Assembly: GCA_013290125.1 (NCBI GenBank)
Contig: JABCYQ010000022.1
Span: forward strand, 1-50,504
Length of the DNA stretch: 50,504 nt
Direction of reading: 5' to 3'
From: Vulcanimicrobiota bacterium
Lineage (GTDB): Bacteria; Vulcanimicrobiota; Vulcanimicrobiia; Eremiobacterales; Eremiobacteraceae
The notes beneath the pieces were generated by a model. It made no database searches and was not told the origin of the DNA. It saw only the letters and a program-made list of their open reading frames with translations. The position numbers and the translations under genes are program-made. This document shows positions 1,854-16,657 of this stretch, in pieces (the stretch's first letter is position 1; every line of letters starts with the position of its first letter).

Positions 1854-3797
1854 GTGCTAGATCCGCGACTCGCAACCATTGAATCTCGTTTGCGAAATTG
1901 GCGAGATATTTGGGAAGACCAGGTCGCGTCATTTAATGTCAATTCGCGTGGCTTAGAATTACGAGGCCCCCAAGTCATCTTACTCTATCTATTTGACGAG
2001 TTGCGACTTGGTGGACTGCGAAACAAGGCGAACCGGGCTTTCATCTGTGAGGAACTTCGATACTATATTGATTCGGATGAAATGCTCTCGAAGTCGGGCT
2101 TAGTAATTCTTTTTAAGCGCATTCTCGAAGAAATCCGTGAGATAAGTAAGACGCCTGACAAGATAGTTGTGTCCGCGCAACTCATTGAACTATGTGATCA
2201 GTCGACTACTGAATTCTTAAGAGGAAAGTATTTCGACGCGCTCTTGGCGGAACTCGTGTGGTGGATTACTGATCTATCGAAAGATTATAGGCCTGCAAAA
2301 ATAGCAGTTTTGACAAGAAATGCAATCGTTGCAATGATGTTTCAAGGCTTCGCTCTAAAGACTATAGGAGAAATCCCGAGTCGGCTCCTTGATAACGTAA
2401 CGCAAATTAATGACTACGTTTTTACTAGATTCCCGGCGATAACGACGTCGATGCGCCCTTTCTTTGAGGGCACGCGATTTGACCGAAAGAAATACTCGGC
2501 GGCATTAAAGCTAGAAATGGACGGGCTTACACCGACTCAGAGGCTGAACGGGCTTCGGACCCTTTTTCATGCGTTCCCACGGCGATACAATTACATGCTG
2601 CGCGTCGCGGGGCTCACCGGACTGCGCCCGCTCCAGGTCGGTGAAGTGCAATTTTACTCTCCAAGACTTAGGCCGCTCATTACATGCAATCATGCGAAGG
2701 ATGAACTCGACCTTAGTTCGGCGCCAGGATATATGAACGCATCGATAACGCTGGAAGCACTCGATCCAATCGCCGGTTTGGCCGAGGCTGTCGAAAAAAC
2801 AGCCCGTGCGGTTGATTTGATTCACTATTTTCTAAATCCGCATACGCTCATCGTCGTATCCGCAGACAATTACGTAGTTGCAGACGAAACTTATCATAGT
2901 GTTGCCTCAGGGTCTGGCACAGATACAAGGAATCCAGATGCTTTCGACGGCCTACTCGTTCTAAGGACCGATGGGCAATTCGATAGGGCAGCGATAGATA
3001 GCCTGACGAAGCTGGCTGAAGACCTGCAAACTAAGGGGCGTTGGCTCAACGGAAAGTTCGAAGCGGAAATGGCTTACAAATATTACCGAAAGGCTGAGGA
3101 GTCAGTACCACTTGAAGACAAAATATTGAATTACTGGATCTCCGTGGAGAACGTTCTCTCAACGAAGGGTGAGCGTCCGTTGTTGCGAGGGGAGGATGTC
3201 TCGATAGAGGCAACTTGTCGGGAAGTATTGTCGGCTCTCGGTGTACTCGCAAGGTGCCGTGAAGTCTTTTGGGATCTCTACTTGTTTCTGAATAACATTT
3301 TCAGGAACCAAGAACTTGGAAATCTCAGGCCCGGCGTAAACATCGGTCGACGGGAAGCCGATGAATTGGGTCTCACGCTACCGCTAGGCAAAAGTTTGGA
3401 GATTAAGGATTTCCTCGCGGCCGCGAAGCGCCTCCAACCGAATGTTTCTAATGTGCTAGTCAATGACGTGATAGAATACAGCGTTGCATTCTACGCTGAT
3501 CCGACTTTCGCACTAAAGGAACTAAAGAGAACTCGGCAGTCGGTTCGCGACCTTGTCACGGTGATCTATCAATTTAGGAATCGATTGGTCCATGAGGCGA
3601 CTGTCAATATGCGAATGCTCCCATATTTCACTCAAAGACTGCGGACTTTCAATATCGGATTGCTGTCCATCATCACACGAGCAACCGAGCGCGGAGGAGT
3701 TGTTGAGGCTATAGCAGATGCAATTGTTCGGGCGGATTTGGTGGTCGATCGGCTCTCGTCGAAGGAGCCCGTTGACCTGCTAAATGTATTTGCGTAG
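1854..3797 (+). CDS. Large protein with C-terminal HEPN (ApeA-like) domain; putative defence effector
   Basis: 647 residues, GTG start with GGAG eight bases upstream. The first 400 residues are not recognised. Residues about 400-610 are helical and fit an ApeA-type HEPN domain: first helices with Y-K-Y-Y-R-K-A-E then I-L-N-Y-W-I-S-V-E-N-V-L (the W-x-x-x-E-x-L element of the family), and a late helix with Y-Q-F-R-N-R-L-V-H-E. In the last, R575-N576-x3-H580 is the R-x4-6-H motif that forms the RNase active site of HEPN toxins and effectors. HEPN ribonucleases typically act in abortive infection, toxin-antitoxin and CRISPR systems. The gene is distinctly AT-richer than its surroundings and is followed 143 bp later, same strand, by a nuclease-like gene. 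No signal peptide or membrane segment is evident. A role in phage defence is inferred from domain and context. Confidence 0.65.
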   Translation: MLDPRLATIESRLRNWRDIWEDQVASFNVNSRGLELRGPQVILLYLFDELRLGGLRNKANRAFICEELRYYIDSDEMLSKSGLVILFKRILEEIREISKTPDKIVVSAQLIELCDQSTTEFLRGKYFDALLAELVWWITDLSKDYRPAKIAVLTRNAIVAMMFQGFALKTIGEIPSRLLDNVTQINDYVFTRFPAITTSMRPFFEGTRFDRKKYSAALKLEMDGLTPTQRLNGLRTLFHAFPRRYNYMLRVAGLTGLRPLQVGEVQFYSPRLRPLITCNHAKDELDLSSAPGYMNASITLEALDPIAGLAEAVEKTARAVDLIHYFLNPHTLIVVSADNYVVADETYHSVASGSGTDTRNPDAFDGLLVLRTDGQFDRAAIDSLTKLAEDLQTKGRWLNGKFEAEMAYKYYRKAEESVPLEDKILNYWISVENVLSTKGERPLLRGEDVSIEATCREVLSALGVLARCREVFWDLYLFLNNIFRNQELGNLRPGVNIGRREADELGLTLPLGKSLEIKDFLAAAKRLQPNVSNVLVNDVIEYSVAFYADPTFALKELKRTRQSVRDLVTVIYQFRNRLVHEATVNMRMLPYFTQRLRTFNIGLLSIITRATERGGVVEAIADAIVRADLVVDRLSSKEPVDLLNVFA

Positions 3798-3940: not shown

Positions 3941-5644
3941 ATGGCCGGCGGCGTGCTTGTGAATATCGCGTACGATGAAATGTTTCAGGGCTCAGCGAGT
4001 CTGTCAGAACTCGAATACTTAACATCCGCATGGCCTTTGGAATCAACTCTGGATCTGATCGGGCGACTTAGTGCCCTATTGCGCTTCGGTCAGCTAGACT
4101 ACCGAGCGCCGAAGTTTCAGCACCAATTCGTTGAAGCGCTTCGACTCAACTGTCACCGTACGCGCTTGGACGAATTTATCGATCAGGGCCGCACTTTGTT
4201 CTATCCGGAACAATTGGCGATACTCATAAAGCAAGTAGTTAAACATAGCAGAGCTGCAAAACGCCCTCAAACCTTTGGCGACGACTTTTGTCGGGCCTTG
4301 TTGACAATATCAAGTCTTCGTTCCGCCAGTATCCAAAGAACGCATAGCGGTACTCCGTCAGACCTTGTACCGACGGAAATAGCGGGGATGTTTGGATTTG
4401 AGGATCCGTACCTAAACAAACTCCTCGTATACGCATCGTTCTTCCGTTGGGCATCAACCGAGGAGGCACGAGGACACCCGGCGTTTAGCGATGTCAACTC
4501 GGACGTAGTGGATCTCCTTGAAATGTCGTGGGTTGACTTTATGGCTGTTGGCTATGGGGAAATCTTGAGATTTAAACAAATCACGTCGTTCGAAAATCTA
4601 TCAAACTACAGTTACCTTCTGCCTCCAGAATACCTTAATACGATTGCAAGTCCACAGGCCGTTGAAAAGTGGTTGCGGATCAACACGGTTGATGTTGCCG
4701 AATTGTCAACCCTTCTGGACACAGCGGGGTCGGACTCCCATCTTGGTGCGACGCTGTTCCCACTCAAACAACGACCATTCATCCGGCTTCCGAGCGGCAA
4801 CCTTTGTTGCCCATATATTCCATTTTTAGAAAACGCGTCGACCTCAGGGCTCTATTACAGGCTCGCGGATGCTTATCGCGAGAAGAATCCGAAACGGTCA
4901 AACCTTCTTCGCACATTTTTTGGCCACTATCTTGAGCTGCATGTTTTGTCTCTCTTTTCACGAGTCTCGAAGGAGCGTCACTATGCAATTGACGGTGACA
5001 AGACATATAGAATCGGTCGCGTGGAGTACCACGGAGCCGACGTCGTGGTCTCCGACGGACGCGACGTTGCTTTTATCGAGGTGACTGCCACGCGATTTCG
5101 TGAAATCGAATCACTGATCGAGCTGCGCGATGAATTCATCGAAGAAGACATAGCTAGACTAATCGAAAAGATTGAGGAATTGGATGAAGACATCCGTCAT
5201 TTCCGCGAAGGTCATCTTGAATACGAAGGGGTTAGTCCAAGGTCCCTCCATCGATTGTTCCCAATAATCGTAACATCGTTTGCCGTGCCACATTGGGTCG
5301 GCATCATATCACAGATTCGTGAAGCCATCAAAAGGAATAGCTGGCTCCAAAACACTGAGACTCTCGAAATAATTGAGGTACAGGCCCTTGACTTACTGGA
5401 AGGTGATCTTAGCGCGACGATAAGCATATTTGATCTCCTTACCGCCAAGCAATCGATGACGAAGACGTCTCCATGGAGCTTAATGAACTTCGTGGCGCTT
5501 CGGGGCAAAGAGATCGGTTTGGGGGAGCCAGTAGCTAAGCCCAATGCGCTAAATGAAATTGAGGACGAACTGCGTAAACGCTATAACTCATGGGGCGGTA
5601 TGCAGATTGTAAAGCCGCCCTCAGGTTCACCACCTACAGGTTAG
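3941..5644 (+). CDS. Putative PD-(D/E)xK-nuclease-like protein, partner of the HEPN gene
   Basis: 567 residues, ATG start with AAGGA eight bases upstream. The N-terminal 300 residues are unrecognised and mostly helical. Residues 325-385 fit a restriction-endonuclease-like core: E332 in a helix (H-Y-L-E-L-H), then a strand with G-A-D-V-V-V (D367), then D-V-A-F-I-E-V-T (E380, T382). Spacing and hydrophobicity match D-(x)n-E-x-K, but the lysine position is threonine, so activity is uncertain. A strongly acidic, probably coiled-coil stretch follows (about 388-425), where positively charged DNA-binding surface would be expected to be weak. Composition is AT-rich like the preceding HEPN gene, and orientation and spacing suggest joint transcription. 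Possible roles: a nucleic-acid sensor, a second effector, or an antidote to the HEPN protein. None can be chosen from sequence alone. Confidence 0.5.
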   Translation: MAGGVLVNIAYDEMFQGSASLSELEYLTSAWPLESTLDLIGRLSALLRFGQLDYRAPKFQHQFVEALRLNCHRTRLDEFIDQGRTLFYPEQLAILIKQVVKHSRAAKRPQTFGDDFCRALLTISSLRSASIQRTHSGTPSDLVPTEIAGMFGFEDPYLNKLLVYASFFRWASTEEARGHPAFSDVNSDVVDLLEMSWVDFMAVGYGEILRFKQITSFENLSNYSYLLPPEYLNTIASPQAVEKWLRINTVDVAELSTLLDTAGSDSHLGATLFPLKQRPFIRLPSGNLCCPYIPFLENASTSGLYYRLADAYREKNPKRSNLLRTFFGHYLELHVLSLFSRVSKERHYAIDGDKTYRIGRVEYHGADVVVSDGRDVAFIEVTATRFREIESLIELRDEFIEEDIARLIEKIEELDEDIRHFREGHLEYEGVSPRSLHRLFPIIVTSFAVPHWVGIISQIREAIKRNSWLQNTETLEIIEVQALDLLEGDLSATISIFDLLTAKQSMTKTSPWSLMNFVALRGKEIGLGEPVAKPNALNEIEDELRKRYNSWGGMQIVKPPSGSPPTG

Positions 5645-11350: not shown

Positions 11351-14300
11351 GTGGTCTCTTTGACTATCTCCCCGCCCGCAACGAAGCGAAGATCCTCATC
11401 TCGATTTCCCAGGTTCTGGGCGGTCGCGATGGCGCTCGCGCTCGTCGTGCCGCGCAGCGCCGCTGCTTCCGGACCGGTCGCGATCGTCGCGAATCTTGGC
11501 GGCGCACTCACGGTGCGCGACACTTCGGGCGCCTCGCATGACGTGAGCGGCGCGCAGGCGCTTCGATCGGGCGAGACCGTGATGACCGGCATCAATGGCC
11601 TAGCCTCCGTCGCCGCCGCGGGTGCACTGCGCGCTCGACTCGGCGCCGGAACCACAGTGCAATATGCAAGTTCGACGTCCGGCACGACGCTGCGATTGAG
11701 CGCGGGAGCGATGTGCGTTGCCGCCGATGCGCCGTCGCTCGCAGTTACGACGGGCGGAGCGACGCTGACCGTCTCCAGTGTGCCCGCGGTGTTCGACATC
11801 GCGGCGGATTCGAGCGGAGCGGATGTCGCGCTTTATATCGGAAGCATCACGACCAAAGGACCGAACGGCTCGACGACGACCGTCGACGCTCCCGCCGCGT
11901 TGCGGCTTGCCGGCAAGAACGCGCCGACGCACCTCGATTTCCAAGCCACGACGCAAGAGTTCACCGCGCTGCCATGCCCCGACCGCACCGATGCGCAACG
12001 CGTCGCGAACGCGTCGGCATCTCCAGTGCCGTCTCCGGATGTCACGGCTGCGCCGTCTTCGGGCGGCGGCGGAGGTGGAATCATCGGTTTGCTTGCGGGC
12101 ATCGCGGGACTCGCCGCACTTGCCGGCCATGGCGGGGGAGGCGGCGGCGGCGGTAGCAGTGGCGGAGGCGGCCCGCCGCCAACTCCGCCGCCCGGCGTGC
12201 TGAACACGAATCCGACGAGTTTGGATTTCGCGTCGCAAAGTGCGGCGCCGCAGCCCTTCACCGCGTCCGAGTCGAACTATACCGGCGCTATTTCCGCGGT
12301 GATCTCAGGTAATCCGGGCGTTGCGACGGTGAGCGGATCCGGTAACGGACCCGGCCCTGTGACATTCACGGTGACGCCCGTCGCCCCCGGAACCACGACG
12401 ATCACCGTTACCGACGCGCGCGGCGGCAGCGTAGCGGTTCAAGTTGCGGTTTCCGGGCCTTTCCAAGTGAACCCGCAAAGCTTGTCATTCGATTCACCAA
12501 CGGCGGGCCAAAAGCCGATCACCGTGAACGAACCTGACTACTCCGGACCGTTCAGCGCAATGTCGAACAACACGACGGTCGCGACGGTCAGCGGTTCGGG
12601 CAACGGTCCCGGACCGGTTACGTTTATGGTAATGCCACATGGCGCCGGCAACACGAATATCGTCGTGAGCGACAACCTTGGCCACACCACAAACGTGAGC
12701 GTCTCGGTCGCGGGAGTTCTGAGCGCCAACCCGACGTCGCTGACGTTCAACGTCGGCGCACCGGCGCAGAACGTCGGCGTTTCCGAAGCGAACTACACCG
12801 GCGCGATAAGCGGCAAATCCAACGATACGTCGATCGCTACGGTGACCGGAAGCGGCAACGGGCCCGGACCTGTGCAGTTCTCGGTGACCCCCGTGGGATC
12901 GGGCGCGACGTCGGTGACGTTCAGCGATGTCCACGGTAACACAGTCAACGTTTCTGTAACGGTGCAGACGCCGGGCGCGCTCCAAGTGCTGCCGACGAGC
13001 ATCGGCCCGATCGGCGTCAACGCTGCCGGCCAGACGGTGACCGCAAATGAAGCAAATTATTCCGGCGCGATAAGCGCGGTAAGCAGCGACCCGACGATCG
13101 CGACGGTTTCCGGCGGCGGTAATGGACCCGGACCGGTGACCTTCACGGTGACGCCCACGGGAAATAAGCACGGCGATGTCACCGTGACGGTCAGTGACAC
13201 GATCGGCAACTCCGTGCCGGTGAGCGTCAGAATCGCGGGTCCGATCAGCCCGAGCGTGAACAGCCTGTCGTTCAACGGCACCACGACGCCGCAGATGTTC
13301 ACGGCGACCGATCCGAACAACACGCCGAACGGCACGCTGAGCGCTCACTCGAGCAACACCGATGTCGCAACGGTAACCGGATCCGGCGGCGCCCCGGGGC
13401 CGGTCACGTTCACGGTCACGCCTGTCGGGCAGGGATCGGCGAACATCACGGTCACCGACAACATCGGCCAGTCGGCTGTCGTCTCCGTCTCTGTTTCGAC
13501 CGGTGGGCTCGTCCTCAATCCGACGAGTCTTGCACTGTACTTCAACGGCTCGTCCGGTACGCCCAAACAATTCACAGCGACGCAGGCGAATTTCGGCGGA
13601 ACGATTTCGGCGTCCACGGGTAACGCCGGTATCGCAACGGTTTCTCCGGCATCGGGTCCCGGGCCCGGACCCGTGACGTTCACGGTGACGCCGGCTGGCG
13701 CCGGCGACACGAACATCACGGTGACCGGCAACGGCAGCGTCATGTTACCGGTGACCGTCACTGGGCCGCTGACGACGACGAAACAATCGCTGACGTTCGG
13801 CGGAACGACCACGCCGCAGACGTTCGTCGCGAACGACCCGAACTTCAGCGGCACCATCACGGCTTCGAGCGACGCGACCGGCGTCGCGACGGTCAACCCG
13901 ACCGGCAGCGGACCGTCCGCCACGTTCACCGTGACGCCGGTGTCGAAAGGAAACGCGACGATAACGGTGACCGACGGTGTGGGCGGAACGGCCGCGGTCT
14001 CAATCACAGTCCAGACGGGCGCTCTCGGCATAGTTCCGACGTCGCTGACGTTCGCCGGCACGTCGGCACCGACGCAGACGGCGACGGCATCTGAGAACAA
14101 CTATGTCGGCAACATCACGCCTTCGAACTGCGCCATCGCGTCGTTCTCTCCTCCAGTAGGGCACGGCCCGATCCAACCGTTTGTCGTCGGACCGATCGCG
14201 GTCGGCATCTGTCACGCGAACATCGTGACGAGCGATCAGCAGGTGACGCTGACCATCACCGTCTTCGGCGGGCTCATGGTCAGCCCGAGTTCGCTCACGT

Positions 14301-16657
14301 ACAGTGACGTCAACGCATTGCAGACTGTCAATGTGTCTGAGAACACCTACACGGGCAATTTCAGCGTGGCGAACAACACGTGCTCGGGAATCGCGAGCGT
14401 CGGAACTCCGTCCGGTCCGGGTCCGACCGCGACGATCGCGGTGACTTCCAGCGTTTCCGCGTCGGGCGGCACGTGCAGCTTCGACGTCGACGACGATCAC
14501 GGCGGATCGCAGGCTGTCAGCGTGACGGTCGGACCGTTCGGCGTGGTCAATCCGTCGCCGGCAAGCGTTGCGCTTTCGGTGACGAGCCCGACAACCGGCA
14601 ACGTCAACGTCAGCGAGTCGAACTACGGCGGTCCGTTCACGGCGACGTCCGCGGACTGCTCTGGCATCGCAACGTTTAGCGGAGGACCGACCGCGTTCAC
14701 CGTGACCGCCGTCGCGCCGGGGTCGTGCACGATCACGATGCACGACGATCACGGCCAGACCGCGCCTGTCGCGGTCAGCGTCGCGGGCGCACTCATGGTT
14801 TCACCGACGAGTCACACGTTCAACGACATCGGCCTCACAACCCCGATCGCGATCACGGAGCAGAATTATACCGGAGCGTTCAACGTGACCAATAGCGCCG
14901 ACTGCGCAGGCATCGCGACGTTCAGCGCTCTGACCGGCAGCGGACCGAGCTTCACGCTCGGCGTGACCTCTGCGGGCGCCGGAACGTGCACGTTCGACGT
15001 GACCGACGCGTTTAGCGCAAGCACTCTCGTGACCATCACGGTCGGACCGTTCGGCACGGTCACGCCTGCACCGAATCCGTTGCCGCTCAACACGTCGAAC
15101 AATACGTCGCAGTCAGTCGCTGTCTCGGAAACGGGCTACAGCGGCCAATTCACCGCGGGGTCAACCGACTGCAGCGGTATCGCGACCTTCCCAGCCGGAC
15201 CGGCCACGAGCTTCCTCGTCTCGGCTGTCGCCGCAGGCACGTGTCACATCCAGTCCACCGACGATCACGGCGGTTCGGGCACTGAGACGGTCGTCGTCGA
15301 CGGCACGCTGACGCTTTCACCGAATCCGCTCGGCTTTAGCGACGTCAATGTGACGACGCCGCTCGCCATCTCGGAGACGAACTACACCGGCACGTTCGCG
15401 ACCGGGAATTCGACCTGTTCGGGAATTGCCACCATCGGAGCGCCCGCCGGACCGGGACCGAGCACGACGTTGAACGTCACCTCGCTCGCTACGGGATCGT
15501 GCACGTTCGTGGTCCAGGATACGGATGGACAAAGCGTGACCGAGACCGTGAATGTCGGGCCGTTCGGTGCGGTCGTACCGAGCACGGCGCAGCTCAATCT
15601 GAACACTGGCGGGCCGACGACCGGCACCTTCACGATATCGGAAACTGGCTACAACGGAACATTCACGGCGACGCTTGGACCGACGTGCAGTTCCGTGGCA
15701 AGCGTTTCGCCGGGAAGCGGCAACTCCAGCGTTACGTTCACCGTGACCGCACTCGGGGTGGGTACGTGCGGCGTCCATCTCGCAGACGATCATGGACAGA
15801 CCGCGCTCGTCACGGTGGAAGTCGCATCGGGCGGCATGTCGGTCAGTCCCGCGTCGCTGACCTTCCCCACGACGACGAGCCCGACGCAGAATTTCACCGC
15901 CTCTGACCTGTTGGGAATCAACTTCGTCGTCAACAACCCCGATCCGACCGACCTCGGCGTCACGGTGACGTCGGGAATCGGATCGGCGAGTATAGCGGTC
16001 ACACCGACCAACGCCAATCCGTCGTTCAGCGGCACGATCGCCTTGACCGTGACCGACGATATCCCCGGCTCGAGCGCGGTCGTCGAAGTGGGCATCGCCG
16101 TCGCGTCACCGCTTTCGAAACATCACAGGGTTCCGCCGGGCGGCGGCAAGCGCGTGCCGCCGCCGCGTCATGGTCCGCGTCATGGTCCGCCGCATCCGGG
16201 CTCGCCGCGTCCGATAGCACCGCACCCACTTCCGCCGCGCACGACGCTGCATCCACTCGCGGTGATGTCGCCCGCACCCACGAGGTCACCGTCGCCTGGG
16301 ATGCCGCGCGCCGTCCTACCGCCGCGAAGCGCGGCGCCACCCTTGCAACCGGCTCAACCGTTTGACATAGCGCTGGCATTTGCGACCTTGGATAGACCCG
16401 GCGCACAGCTTGTGATTCAGACGCGTGGCACGCCGGACGGCGCGCTCGCGGCCGAAGTCTCCGATCAAACCATCTGCACCGTGCAGATCATGCCGGGTGC
16501 AGGCGCCGTCAGATCAATCGTGATCGTCGCAAAGGCGGCGGGCATCGCGTTGGTGCGCGTCACGGATGCGCGCGGCGAGTTCCGAACCATCGCTGTTCGC
16601 GTTCTTGCCCCGTCCGCTGCGCGTGGCGTGCCGCACACTCCCGGAGGGCCGAATTGA
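11351..16657 (+). CDS. Giant exported FecR-like / Ig-like repeat protein
   Basis: 1768 residues. GTG start; residues 12-41 look like a signal peptide (K-R-R, hydrophobic core, S-A-A-A-S). Residues about 42-200 resemble a FecR domain (V-A-I-V-A-N-L-G-G-A-L-T-V-R...L-R-S-G-E-T-V-M-T-G). A Gly-rich stretch around 237-275 flanks a short hydrophobic segment. Then come 15 Ig-like/BACON-like repeats of about 82-92 residues (about 283-1585), each with the order N-P-x-S-L-x-F, E-x-N-Y-x-G, A-T-V-S-G, F-T-V-T-P and I-T-V-T-D. Repeats 1-7 have no cysteine; repeats 8-14 each carry two at fixed positions (D-C-S-G-I-A-T-F...G-T-C-x-F), probably one disulfide per domain. A Pro/His-rich segment (about 1587-1667) and one diverged terminal domain close the protein. 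Likely a surface or adhesion stalk; no sortase or autotransporter signal is seen. Overlaps the next gene by 4 bp. Confidence 0.85.
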   Translation: MVSLTISPPATKRRSSSRFPRFWAVAMALALVVPRSAAASGPVAIVANLGGALTVRDTSGASHDVSGAQALRSGETVMTGINGLASVAAAGALRARLGAGTTVQYASSTSGTTLRLSAGAMCVAADAPSLAVTTGGATLTVSSVPAVFDIAADSSGADVALYIGSITTKGPNGSTTTVDAPAALRLAGKNAPTHLDFQATTQEFTALPCPDRTDAQRVANASASPVPSPDVTAAPSSGGGGGGIIGLLAGIAGLAALAGHGGGGGGGGSSGGGGPPPTPPPGVLNTNPTSLDFASQSAAPQPFTASESNYTGAISAVISGNPGVATVSGSGNGPGPVTFTVTPVAPGTTTITVTDARGGSVAVQVAVSGPFQVNPQSLSFDSPTAGQKPITVNEPDYSGPFSAMSNNTTVATVSGSGNGPGPVTFMVMPHGAGNTNIVVSDNLGHTTNVSVSVAGVLSANPTSLTFNVGAPAQNVGVSEANYTGAISGKSNDTSIATVTGSGNGPGPVQFSVTPVGSGATSVTFSDVHGNTVNVSVTVQTPGALQVLPTSIGPIGVNAAGQTVTANEANYSGAISAVSSDPTIATVSGGGNGPGPVTFTVTPTGNKHGDVTVTVSDTIGNSVPVSVRIAGPISPSVNSLSFNGTTTPQMFTATDPNNTPNGTLSAHSSNTDVATVTGSGGAPGPVTFTVTPVGQGSANITVTDNIGQSAVVSVSVSTGGLVLNPTSLALYFNGSSGTPKQFTATQANFGGTISASTGNAGIATVSPASGPGPGPVTFTVTPAGAGDTNITVTGNGSVMLPVTVTGPLTTTKQSLTFGGTTTPQTFVANDPNFSGTITASSDATGVATVNPTGSGPSATFTVTPVSKGNATITVTDGVGGTAAVSITVQTGALGIVPTSLTFAGTSAPTQTATASENNYVGNITPSNCAIASFSPPVGHGPIQPFVVGPIAVGICHANIVTSDQQVTLTITVFGGLMVSPSSLTYSDVNALQTVNVSENTYTGNFSVANNTCSGIASVGTPSGPGPTATIAVTSSVSASGGTCSFDVDDDHGGSQAVSVTVGPFGVVNPSPASVALSVTSPTTGNVNVSESNYGGPFTATSADCSGIATFSGGPTAFTVTAVAPGSCTITMHDDHGQTAPVAVSVAGALMVSPTSHTFNDIGLTTPIAITEQNYTGAFNVTNSADCAGIATFSALTGSGPSFTLGVTSAGAGTCTFDVTDAFSASTLVTITVGPFGTVTPAPNPLPLNTSNNTSQSVAVSETGYSGQFTAGSTDCSGIATFPAGPATSFLVSAVAAGTCHIQSTDDHGGSGTETVVVDGTLTLSPNPLGFSDVNVTTPLAISETNYTGTFATGNSTCSGIATIGAPAGPGPSTTLNVTSLATGSCTFVVQDTDGQSVTETVNVGPFGAVVPSTAQLNLNTGGPTTGTFTISETGYNGTFTATLGPTCSSVASVSPGSGNSSVTFTVTALGVGTCGVHLADDHGQTALVTVEVASGGMSVSPASLTFPTTTSPTQNFTASDLLGINFVVNNPDPTDLGVTVTSGIGSASIAVTPTNANPSFSGTIALTVTDDIPGSSAVVEVGIAVASPLSKHHRVPPGGGKRVPPPRHGPRHGPPHPGSPRPIAPHPLPPRTTLHPLAVMSPAPTRSPSPGMPRAVLPPRSAAPPLQPAQPFDIALAFATLDRPGAQLVIQTRGTPDGALAAEVSDQTICTVQIMPGAGAVRSIVIVAKAAGIALVRVTDARGEFRTIAVRVLAPSAARGVPHTPGGPN
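12198..16107 (+). repeat. Array of 15 degenerate Ig-domain coding repeats, about 250-275 bp each
   Basis: In-frame repeats within the giant gene. The most conserved nucleotide block encodes G-S-G-N-G-P-G-P-V-T-F-T-V-T-P in repeats 1-4. The unit ends alternate in the second half: repeats 9, 11 and 13 end in V-G-P-F-G, while 10, 12 and 14 end in A-G, D-G or S-G. This points to duplication of a two-domain unit there. Repeats have diverged strongly and are not a recent expansion. Confidence 0.8.

Follow-up and report, generated by a model that had tools for sequence, protein, structure and literature searches.

A probable exported stalk of Big_2-type Ig domains with a cysteine-free block followed by a cysteine-paired block

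Proteins built from tandem Pfam Big_2 domains (PF02368), with SbsC, intimin and LigA among our fold matches, share their domain family, fold and tandem Ig rod with the protein described here. They differ from it in that here a cysteine pair between the C-D loop and strand F is confined to one block of domains, and in that the N-terminal domain is FecR-like. The nearest published parallel that we found is the giant adhesin of Mobiluncus mulieris, with several kinds of cross-link (PMC10619420). That report describes a long Ig-like array in which kinds of domain are cross-linked differently, growth by domain duplication as presumed by its authors, and a disulfide in the isopeptide domain studied, involving strands 2 and 5 (PMC10619420). 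As described there, the Mobiluncus adhesin differs from our protein in its ester- and isopeptide-bonded Ig domains, its Gram-positive host and the place of the disulfide (PMC10619420). The periplasmic domain of FecR/PupR and the structure 5ix9 are alike in fold to the predicted N-terminal domain. We take 5ix9 to come from a Marinomonas adhesin. Literature searches of titles and the beginnings of abstracts returned other adhesins, and neither the two-block Ig-repeat protein itself nor a comparable protein in the phylum Candidatus Eremiobacterota.

The window, the whole stretch of DNA that was analysed, is 50,504 nucleotides long, and its plus strand holds a 1768-aa ORF (11351-16657) for an Ig-repeat protein with 15 Ig-like repeats (R1-R15). 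A basic n-region, a hydrophobic stretch and AAA, seen by eye, mark a probable Sec signal peptide region (11351-11467), and the protein is probably exported. It continues with a FecR-like N-terminal domain (11468-12007; assigned by alignment, AlphaFold2 and Foldseek), with cysteines at aa 122 and 209, and a linker (12011-12196) in which a Gly run, a hydrophobic stretch of about 17 residues (IIGLLAGIAGLAALAG), a second Gly run and a Pro-rich part were recognized by eye. The cysteine-free Big_2-like repeats R1-R7 (12197-14020) are followed by seven repeats with two cysteines each. R8 (14021-14269) is a divergent type with a short C-D loop; R9 (14270-14542), R11 (14789-15055) and R13 (15305-15568) belong to type A, and R10 (14543-14788), R12 (15056-15304) and R14 (15569-15832) to type B. 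The degenerate penultimate domain R15 (15833-16105), a His/Pro-rich linker (16106-16360) and a C-terminal Ig-like domain (16361-16609) with a single unpaired cysteine (aa 1709) complete the protein. Judged by their divergence the 15 repeats are old, since no two of them exceed 58% identity in protein or 62% in DNA.

The probable explanation, which we favour, is an exported stalk whose proximal block is plain and whose distal block is clamped by disulfides. Such a stalk would begin with the probable signal peptide and the FecR-like domain; after the hydrophobic segment between its Gly runs would come 15 Big_2-type Ig domains as a rod, then a Pro-rich linker and the terminal Ig-like domain. The cysteine pair conserved in R8-R14 would in R9-R14 join the C-D loop to the start of strand F, and the resulting disulfide would clamp the C-D-E part of each distal domain. 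This clamp would make the distal block more resistant than the proximal one to unfolding or proteolysis. The array would lengthen or shorten by entire domains, two at once in the clearest case, with the two blocks keeping their order. We infer a surface location, a stalk shape and a mechanical role.

The distribution of cysteines described in the earlier note was confirmed: R1-R7 contain none and R8-R14 two each, the latter at 14021-15832, 2 nt from where that note had placed them. Under random order, the exact sequence of seven cysteine-free and seven cysteine repeats has a chance of about 1/3432. The alternation of repeat ends that it reported for R9-R14 was also recovered, with VGPFG in R9, R11 and R13 and AG, DG and ASG in R10, R12 and R14, respectively. 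R8 takes no part in this alternation, and in the alignments its loop with the first cysteine is shorter than in R9-R14. The ORF has 17 cysteines in total, two in the N-terminal domain, 14 in R8-R14 and one in the C-terminal domain; the pair of the N-terminal domain, the lone C-terminal cysteine and the cysteine-free R15 are additions to what the earlier note had described.

The repeats are Big_2-type Ig domains. PF02368 matched five stretches of the ORF (42.7 bits against a gathering cut-off of 22.8; E 5.5e-11). An AlphaFold2 model of the R9-R10 pair, built from 30 rows of related domain pairs including cysteine-free ones, had a mean pLDDT of 95.8 and showed an Ig-like beta sandwich with eight strands per domain. 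In structural comparisons R10 aligned with lambda gpV (Z 12.0, 1.7 A over 83 residues) and SbsC (Z 11.4, 1.7 A over 81 residues). Most Foldseek and VIA-align matches were generic Ig folds, beside the S-layer protein SbsC, intimin and Ig domains of phages, and they are silent on function; the search for a sequence relative of the cysteine repeats in the PDB gave nothing useful (best E 0.37). In the Ig fold, from which the strand names are taken, the end of strand C and the start of strand F adjoin in one sheet. The model places C38 and C130 four residues past strand C, and C69 and C153 as the third residue of strand F. An intradomain disulfide from the C-D loop to the start of strand F is therefore likely in R9-R14 by predicted topology. 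The AlphaFold check that the earlier note had proposed for disulfide geometry supports such a bond through predicted strand order, in which the cysteine positions of R9-R10 are neighbours.

Cysteine pairing was followed across the family in 13 ORFs, including that of the window, each no shorter than 350 aa and exceeding a crude motif-count threshold; loci L051-L054 gave none. Among the 95 repeat-like domains in these ORFs (domain E<0.1), 56 had no cysteine, 38 had two, and one, the C-terminal domain of the window, had one. In 32 of the 38 two-cysteine domains the two positions were common to all, in alignment rows picked for those positions; the other six (four penultimate and two C-terminal domains) had their pair at different positions. 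For the trees, 17 low-scoring domains were omitted (penultimate and terminal ones, and G009_09, the third cysteine repeat of G009), and four further penultimate or terminal domains were left out of the 74-row tests. The 74 core repeats comprised 43 with neither cysteine, 31 with both and none with one (raw Fisher p = 1.5e-21). The weight of this co-occurrence is far below what the raw p suggests, because the cysteine label changes three to four times on the trees and starred branches hold a single independent pair. Together with the predicted topology, these counts support the earlier proposal that one half of the protein is stabilised by disulfides.

Between the paired cysteines there are 23-31 residues. 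The main column of the first cysteine was a gap in all 43 cysteine-free core repeats in the alignment used, so the cysteine type, R8 excepted, has a longer loop there. A GPFG end was found in 14 of the 31 cysteine core repeats and in 0 of 43 cysteine-free ones. We regard it as highly improbable that the cysteines cross-link adjacent stalks, or act as ligands of a metal or cofactor, rather than form intradomain disulfides. E24 and D75 (R9 numbering) are likewise conserved in at least 90% of the cysteine repeats, as ligands of such a site might be; however, E24, Y27 and D75 are equally conserved when the cysteine-free repeats are included in the alignment, which leaves the cysteine type without an additional ligand of its own. 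Moreover, the two cysteines of each domain stand at fixed places, near each other by predicted topology. The genome contains a match to VKOR, a disulfide-forming oxidase; a search for DsbB gave no match in the genome.

It is quite possible, if somewhat short of probable, that cysteine pairs were gained (or lost) repeatedly as local changes in the same Ig scaffold, with the R8 type arising apart from R9-R14. This history is compatible with the disulfide-clamped stalk that we favour. The best trees require the three to four label changes noted above and place the R8-type repeats (win_08, G002_04, G013a_02 and G013b_01) on the mostly cysteine-free side, at a weak fork (22/47). The shorter C-D loop of R8 and the penultimate and C-terminal domains with pairs elsewhere point the same way. 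However, a single clade of all cysteine repeats was not rejected (AU p = 0.116; p = 0.345 without the R8 type), and the alignment has only 87 columns and many weak forks.

Repeat number, which the earlier note had suggested comparing, was compared at one syntenic locus. The search covered 14 family genomes, and seven of them, the window's included, have this locus. The TPR, metallo-beta-lactamase and lipoprotein-like neighbours were present in six of nine loci tested, L044, L048 and L049 being those without them. Cysteine-free and cysteine repeats, in this order, numbered 7 and 7 in the window, 3 and 5 in the congener G002, 6 and 3 in both G003 and G009, 1 and 2 in G010, 1 and 4 and 0 and 3 in the two ORFs of G013, and 0 and 3 in G005, giving ranges of 0-7 and 2-7 over the seven genomes. 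With penultimate and terminal domains set aside (they are often cysteine-free), the cysteine-free repeats stood ahead of the cysteine repeats in six of six ORFs with both kinds, which are relatives and not independent cases. At this locus the two blocks vary in length separately with their order kept. These seven genomes form a natural series at one locus, in which one could measure how Ig domains with a disulfide clamp and plain ones differ in their effect on a bacterial stalk; otherwise the array is an ordinary instance of Ig-array evolution. At the syntenic locus of G013 (L046) the two FecR-Ig ORFs, from near 2057 (1+4 repeats) and 5152 (0+3), lie in tandem.

Selection may have fixed the order of the blocks as a gradient of stiffness or stability along a surface stalk, plain near the FecR-like end and disulfide-clamped distally, with two zones tuned in length separately and in part through the gain or loss of domain pairs; we consider this reading unlikely.

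A profile built from the cysteine repeats matched in 99 of 117 genomes of the class, cysteine-free repeats also being picked up. Its best matches outside the family, and hence a biased sample, were 13 loci in 13 genomes of the class (L070-L082) with short lipoprotein-like ORFs of one to three cysteine-type Big_2 domains. All 16 domains of these ORFs had the cysteine pair, identical in kind to that of the window and in a similar core sequence, and 12 of the 13 had a lipobox-like start by eye. They differ from the Ig-repeat protein in their small number of domains, most after a Pro/Thr-rich linker, and in that no FecR-like domain was seen by eye in the 13 ORFs. A scan of named genomes for cysteine-type domains gave four loci, three of Candidatus Eremiobacterota and one of candidate division WPS-2, and on this ground the window is assigned to the phylum Candidatus Eremiobacterota.

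That cysteine-type domains stand without the rest of the protein in these short ORFs (16/16 domains at 13 loci, in the biased set) would suit the graft proposed in the earlier note, in which a single fusion in the window's lineage would have joined an independent cysteine-type array to a cysteine-free one. The tree also sets R9-R14 apart from R1-R7, and the mixing of both halves that the earlier note had named as a refutation was not seen for R9-R14; the placement of R8 is weak. However, the two-block order occurs in five other family ORFs, which makes any fusion at least that old, the GC content at each codon position hardly differs between the two blocks, and type A repeats already lead the cysteine block in G003 and G009. 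A graft in the window's lineage is accordingly improbable.

Expansion by pairs of domains, also proposed in the earlier note, was supported by phylogeny and identity. R9, R12, R13 and R14 have counterparts in the congener (G002_05 to G002_08 in this order) at 67%, 64%, 62% and 57% identity; the counterpart of R8 is weak (44%, tied with R7). R10 and R11 had no counterpart there by identity, and the trees agreed. Type B repeats (R10, R12, R14 and two of G002) formed one branch (89/87), and type A repeats shared another (85/92) with the first cysteine repeat of G003, that of G009 and one of G013a. The grouping of R9 with G002_05 was starred in one tree (99/82) and unstarred in the other (95/70). 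By these comparisons the cysteine arrays of the window and G002 differ by exactly one two-domain unit, R10+R11, and because the congener stands without exactly this pair the unit is real. In the best tree R10 fell outside R12+G002_06, which would mean loss of the pair in G002. AU tests rejected neither R10+R12 (p = 0.092) nor R9+R11 (p = 0.24) as window-only duplications, and are compatible with gain in the window as well as with loss in the congener. In the cysteine-free half, G002_03 was closest to R5, and G003_03, G003_04 and G003_05 to R5, R6 and R7, for which reason G002 may be without R6-R7 as well; G002_01 and G002_02 had no clear single counterpart in the window.

A link between pair duplication and the cysteines, as implied in the earlier note, was not supported. 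Repeats 2-8 of the cysteine-free paralogue G005b formed starred alternate clades in perfect even/odd alternation, reached by 144 of 5040 orders (the least possible), in a stretch picked after the sequences were viewed. The pair unit is thus not peculiar to the cysteine half, since part of a cysteine-free paralogue alternates too. All nine repeats of G005b gave a weak signal (3591 of 20000). Alternation was also perfect in R9-R14 of the window (72 of 720), G002 5-8 (8 of 24) and G009 1-6 (72 of 720), arrays too short for lower fractions. It was weak or absent in the window's R1-R7 (2160 of 5040), R4-R8 (24 of 120) and R1-R14 (5623 of 20000), and in all of G002 (16128 of 40320), G003 1-6 (360 of 720) and G005a (17792 of 20000). 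At locus L044 of G005, two long Ig-repeat ORFs start near 2798 and 8913. They have cysteine-free repeats, and the FecR-like domain is absent from both; in the second, the type alternates over repeats 2-8.

In the N-terminal domain the two cysteines were invariant in 10 of 10 aligned members. Nine of these matched FecR (PF04773) at E<=1 (best 2.6e-6), and the window's own domain did not. The AlphaFold2 model (pLDDT 90.3) gave four Foldseek matches at E<=0.001, among them 6ovk_R (E 1.6e-6) and 4m0n (E 7.5e-5), and its predicted fold resembles periplasmic FecR/PupR and anti-sigma domains; a weaker match was 5ix9, a 'cell surface anchoring domain' (E 6e-3, TM by target 0.71). A profile of this domain matched at E<=0.001 in 38 of 149 genomes of the phylum, and below 1e-60 in eight, all of the window's family. 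RTX/LapA-type adhesins carry a retention module and a C-terminal type 1 secretion signal. In contrast to the FecR/PupR and 5ix9 systems, no sigma factor was found among the ten neighbouring ORFs scanned and no RTX or retention family in Pfam and NCBIfam scans of the whole ORF, and the signal peptide is probably of the Sec type.

The Gly-flanked hydrophobic segment follows the FecR-like domain in 10 of 10 FecR-bearing members (by eye). It could be a membrane anchor, which complicates the topology: if it acted as a conventional stop in the inner membrane once the signal peptide had been cleaved, the repeats would end up in the cytoplasm, an unlikely place since the cysteines appear to pair.

Upstream of the Ig-repeat ORF lie a divergent TPR gene and genes for MarR, HlyD-family and MFS proteins. 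The HlyD-family gene, the closest one of an export type, is followed by that of the MFS transporter; the two look like a drug-efflux pair and are no evidence for export of the Ig-repeat protein. Elsewhere in the window, ORFs of 647 and 567 aa (1854-3797 and 3941-5644) had no Pfam match at E<=0.01. The metallo-beta-lactamase ORF downstream has, in its longest reading, a TTG start codon overlapping the stop codon of the Ig-repeat ORF (16654-16657), and this overlap may reflect translational coupling. The two ORFs lie without overlap in G002 (L041), and the metallo-beta-lactamase neighbour is kept in six other genomes.
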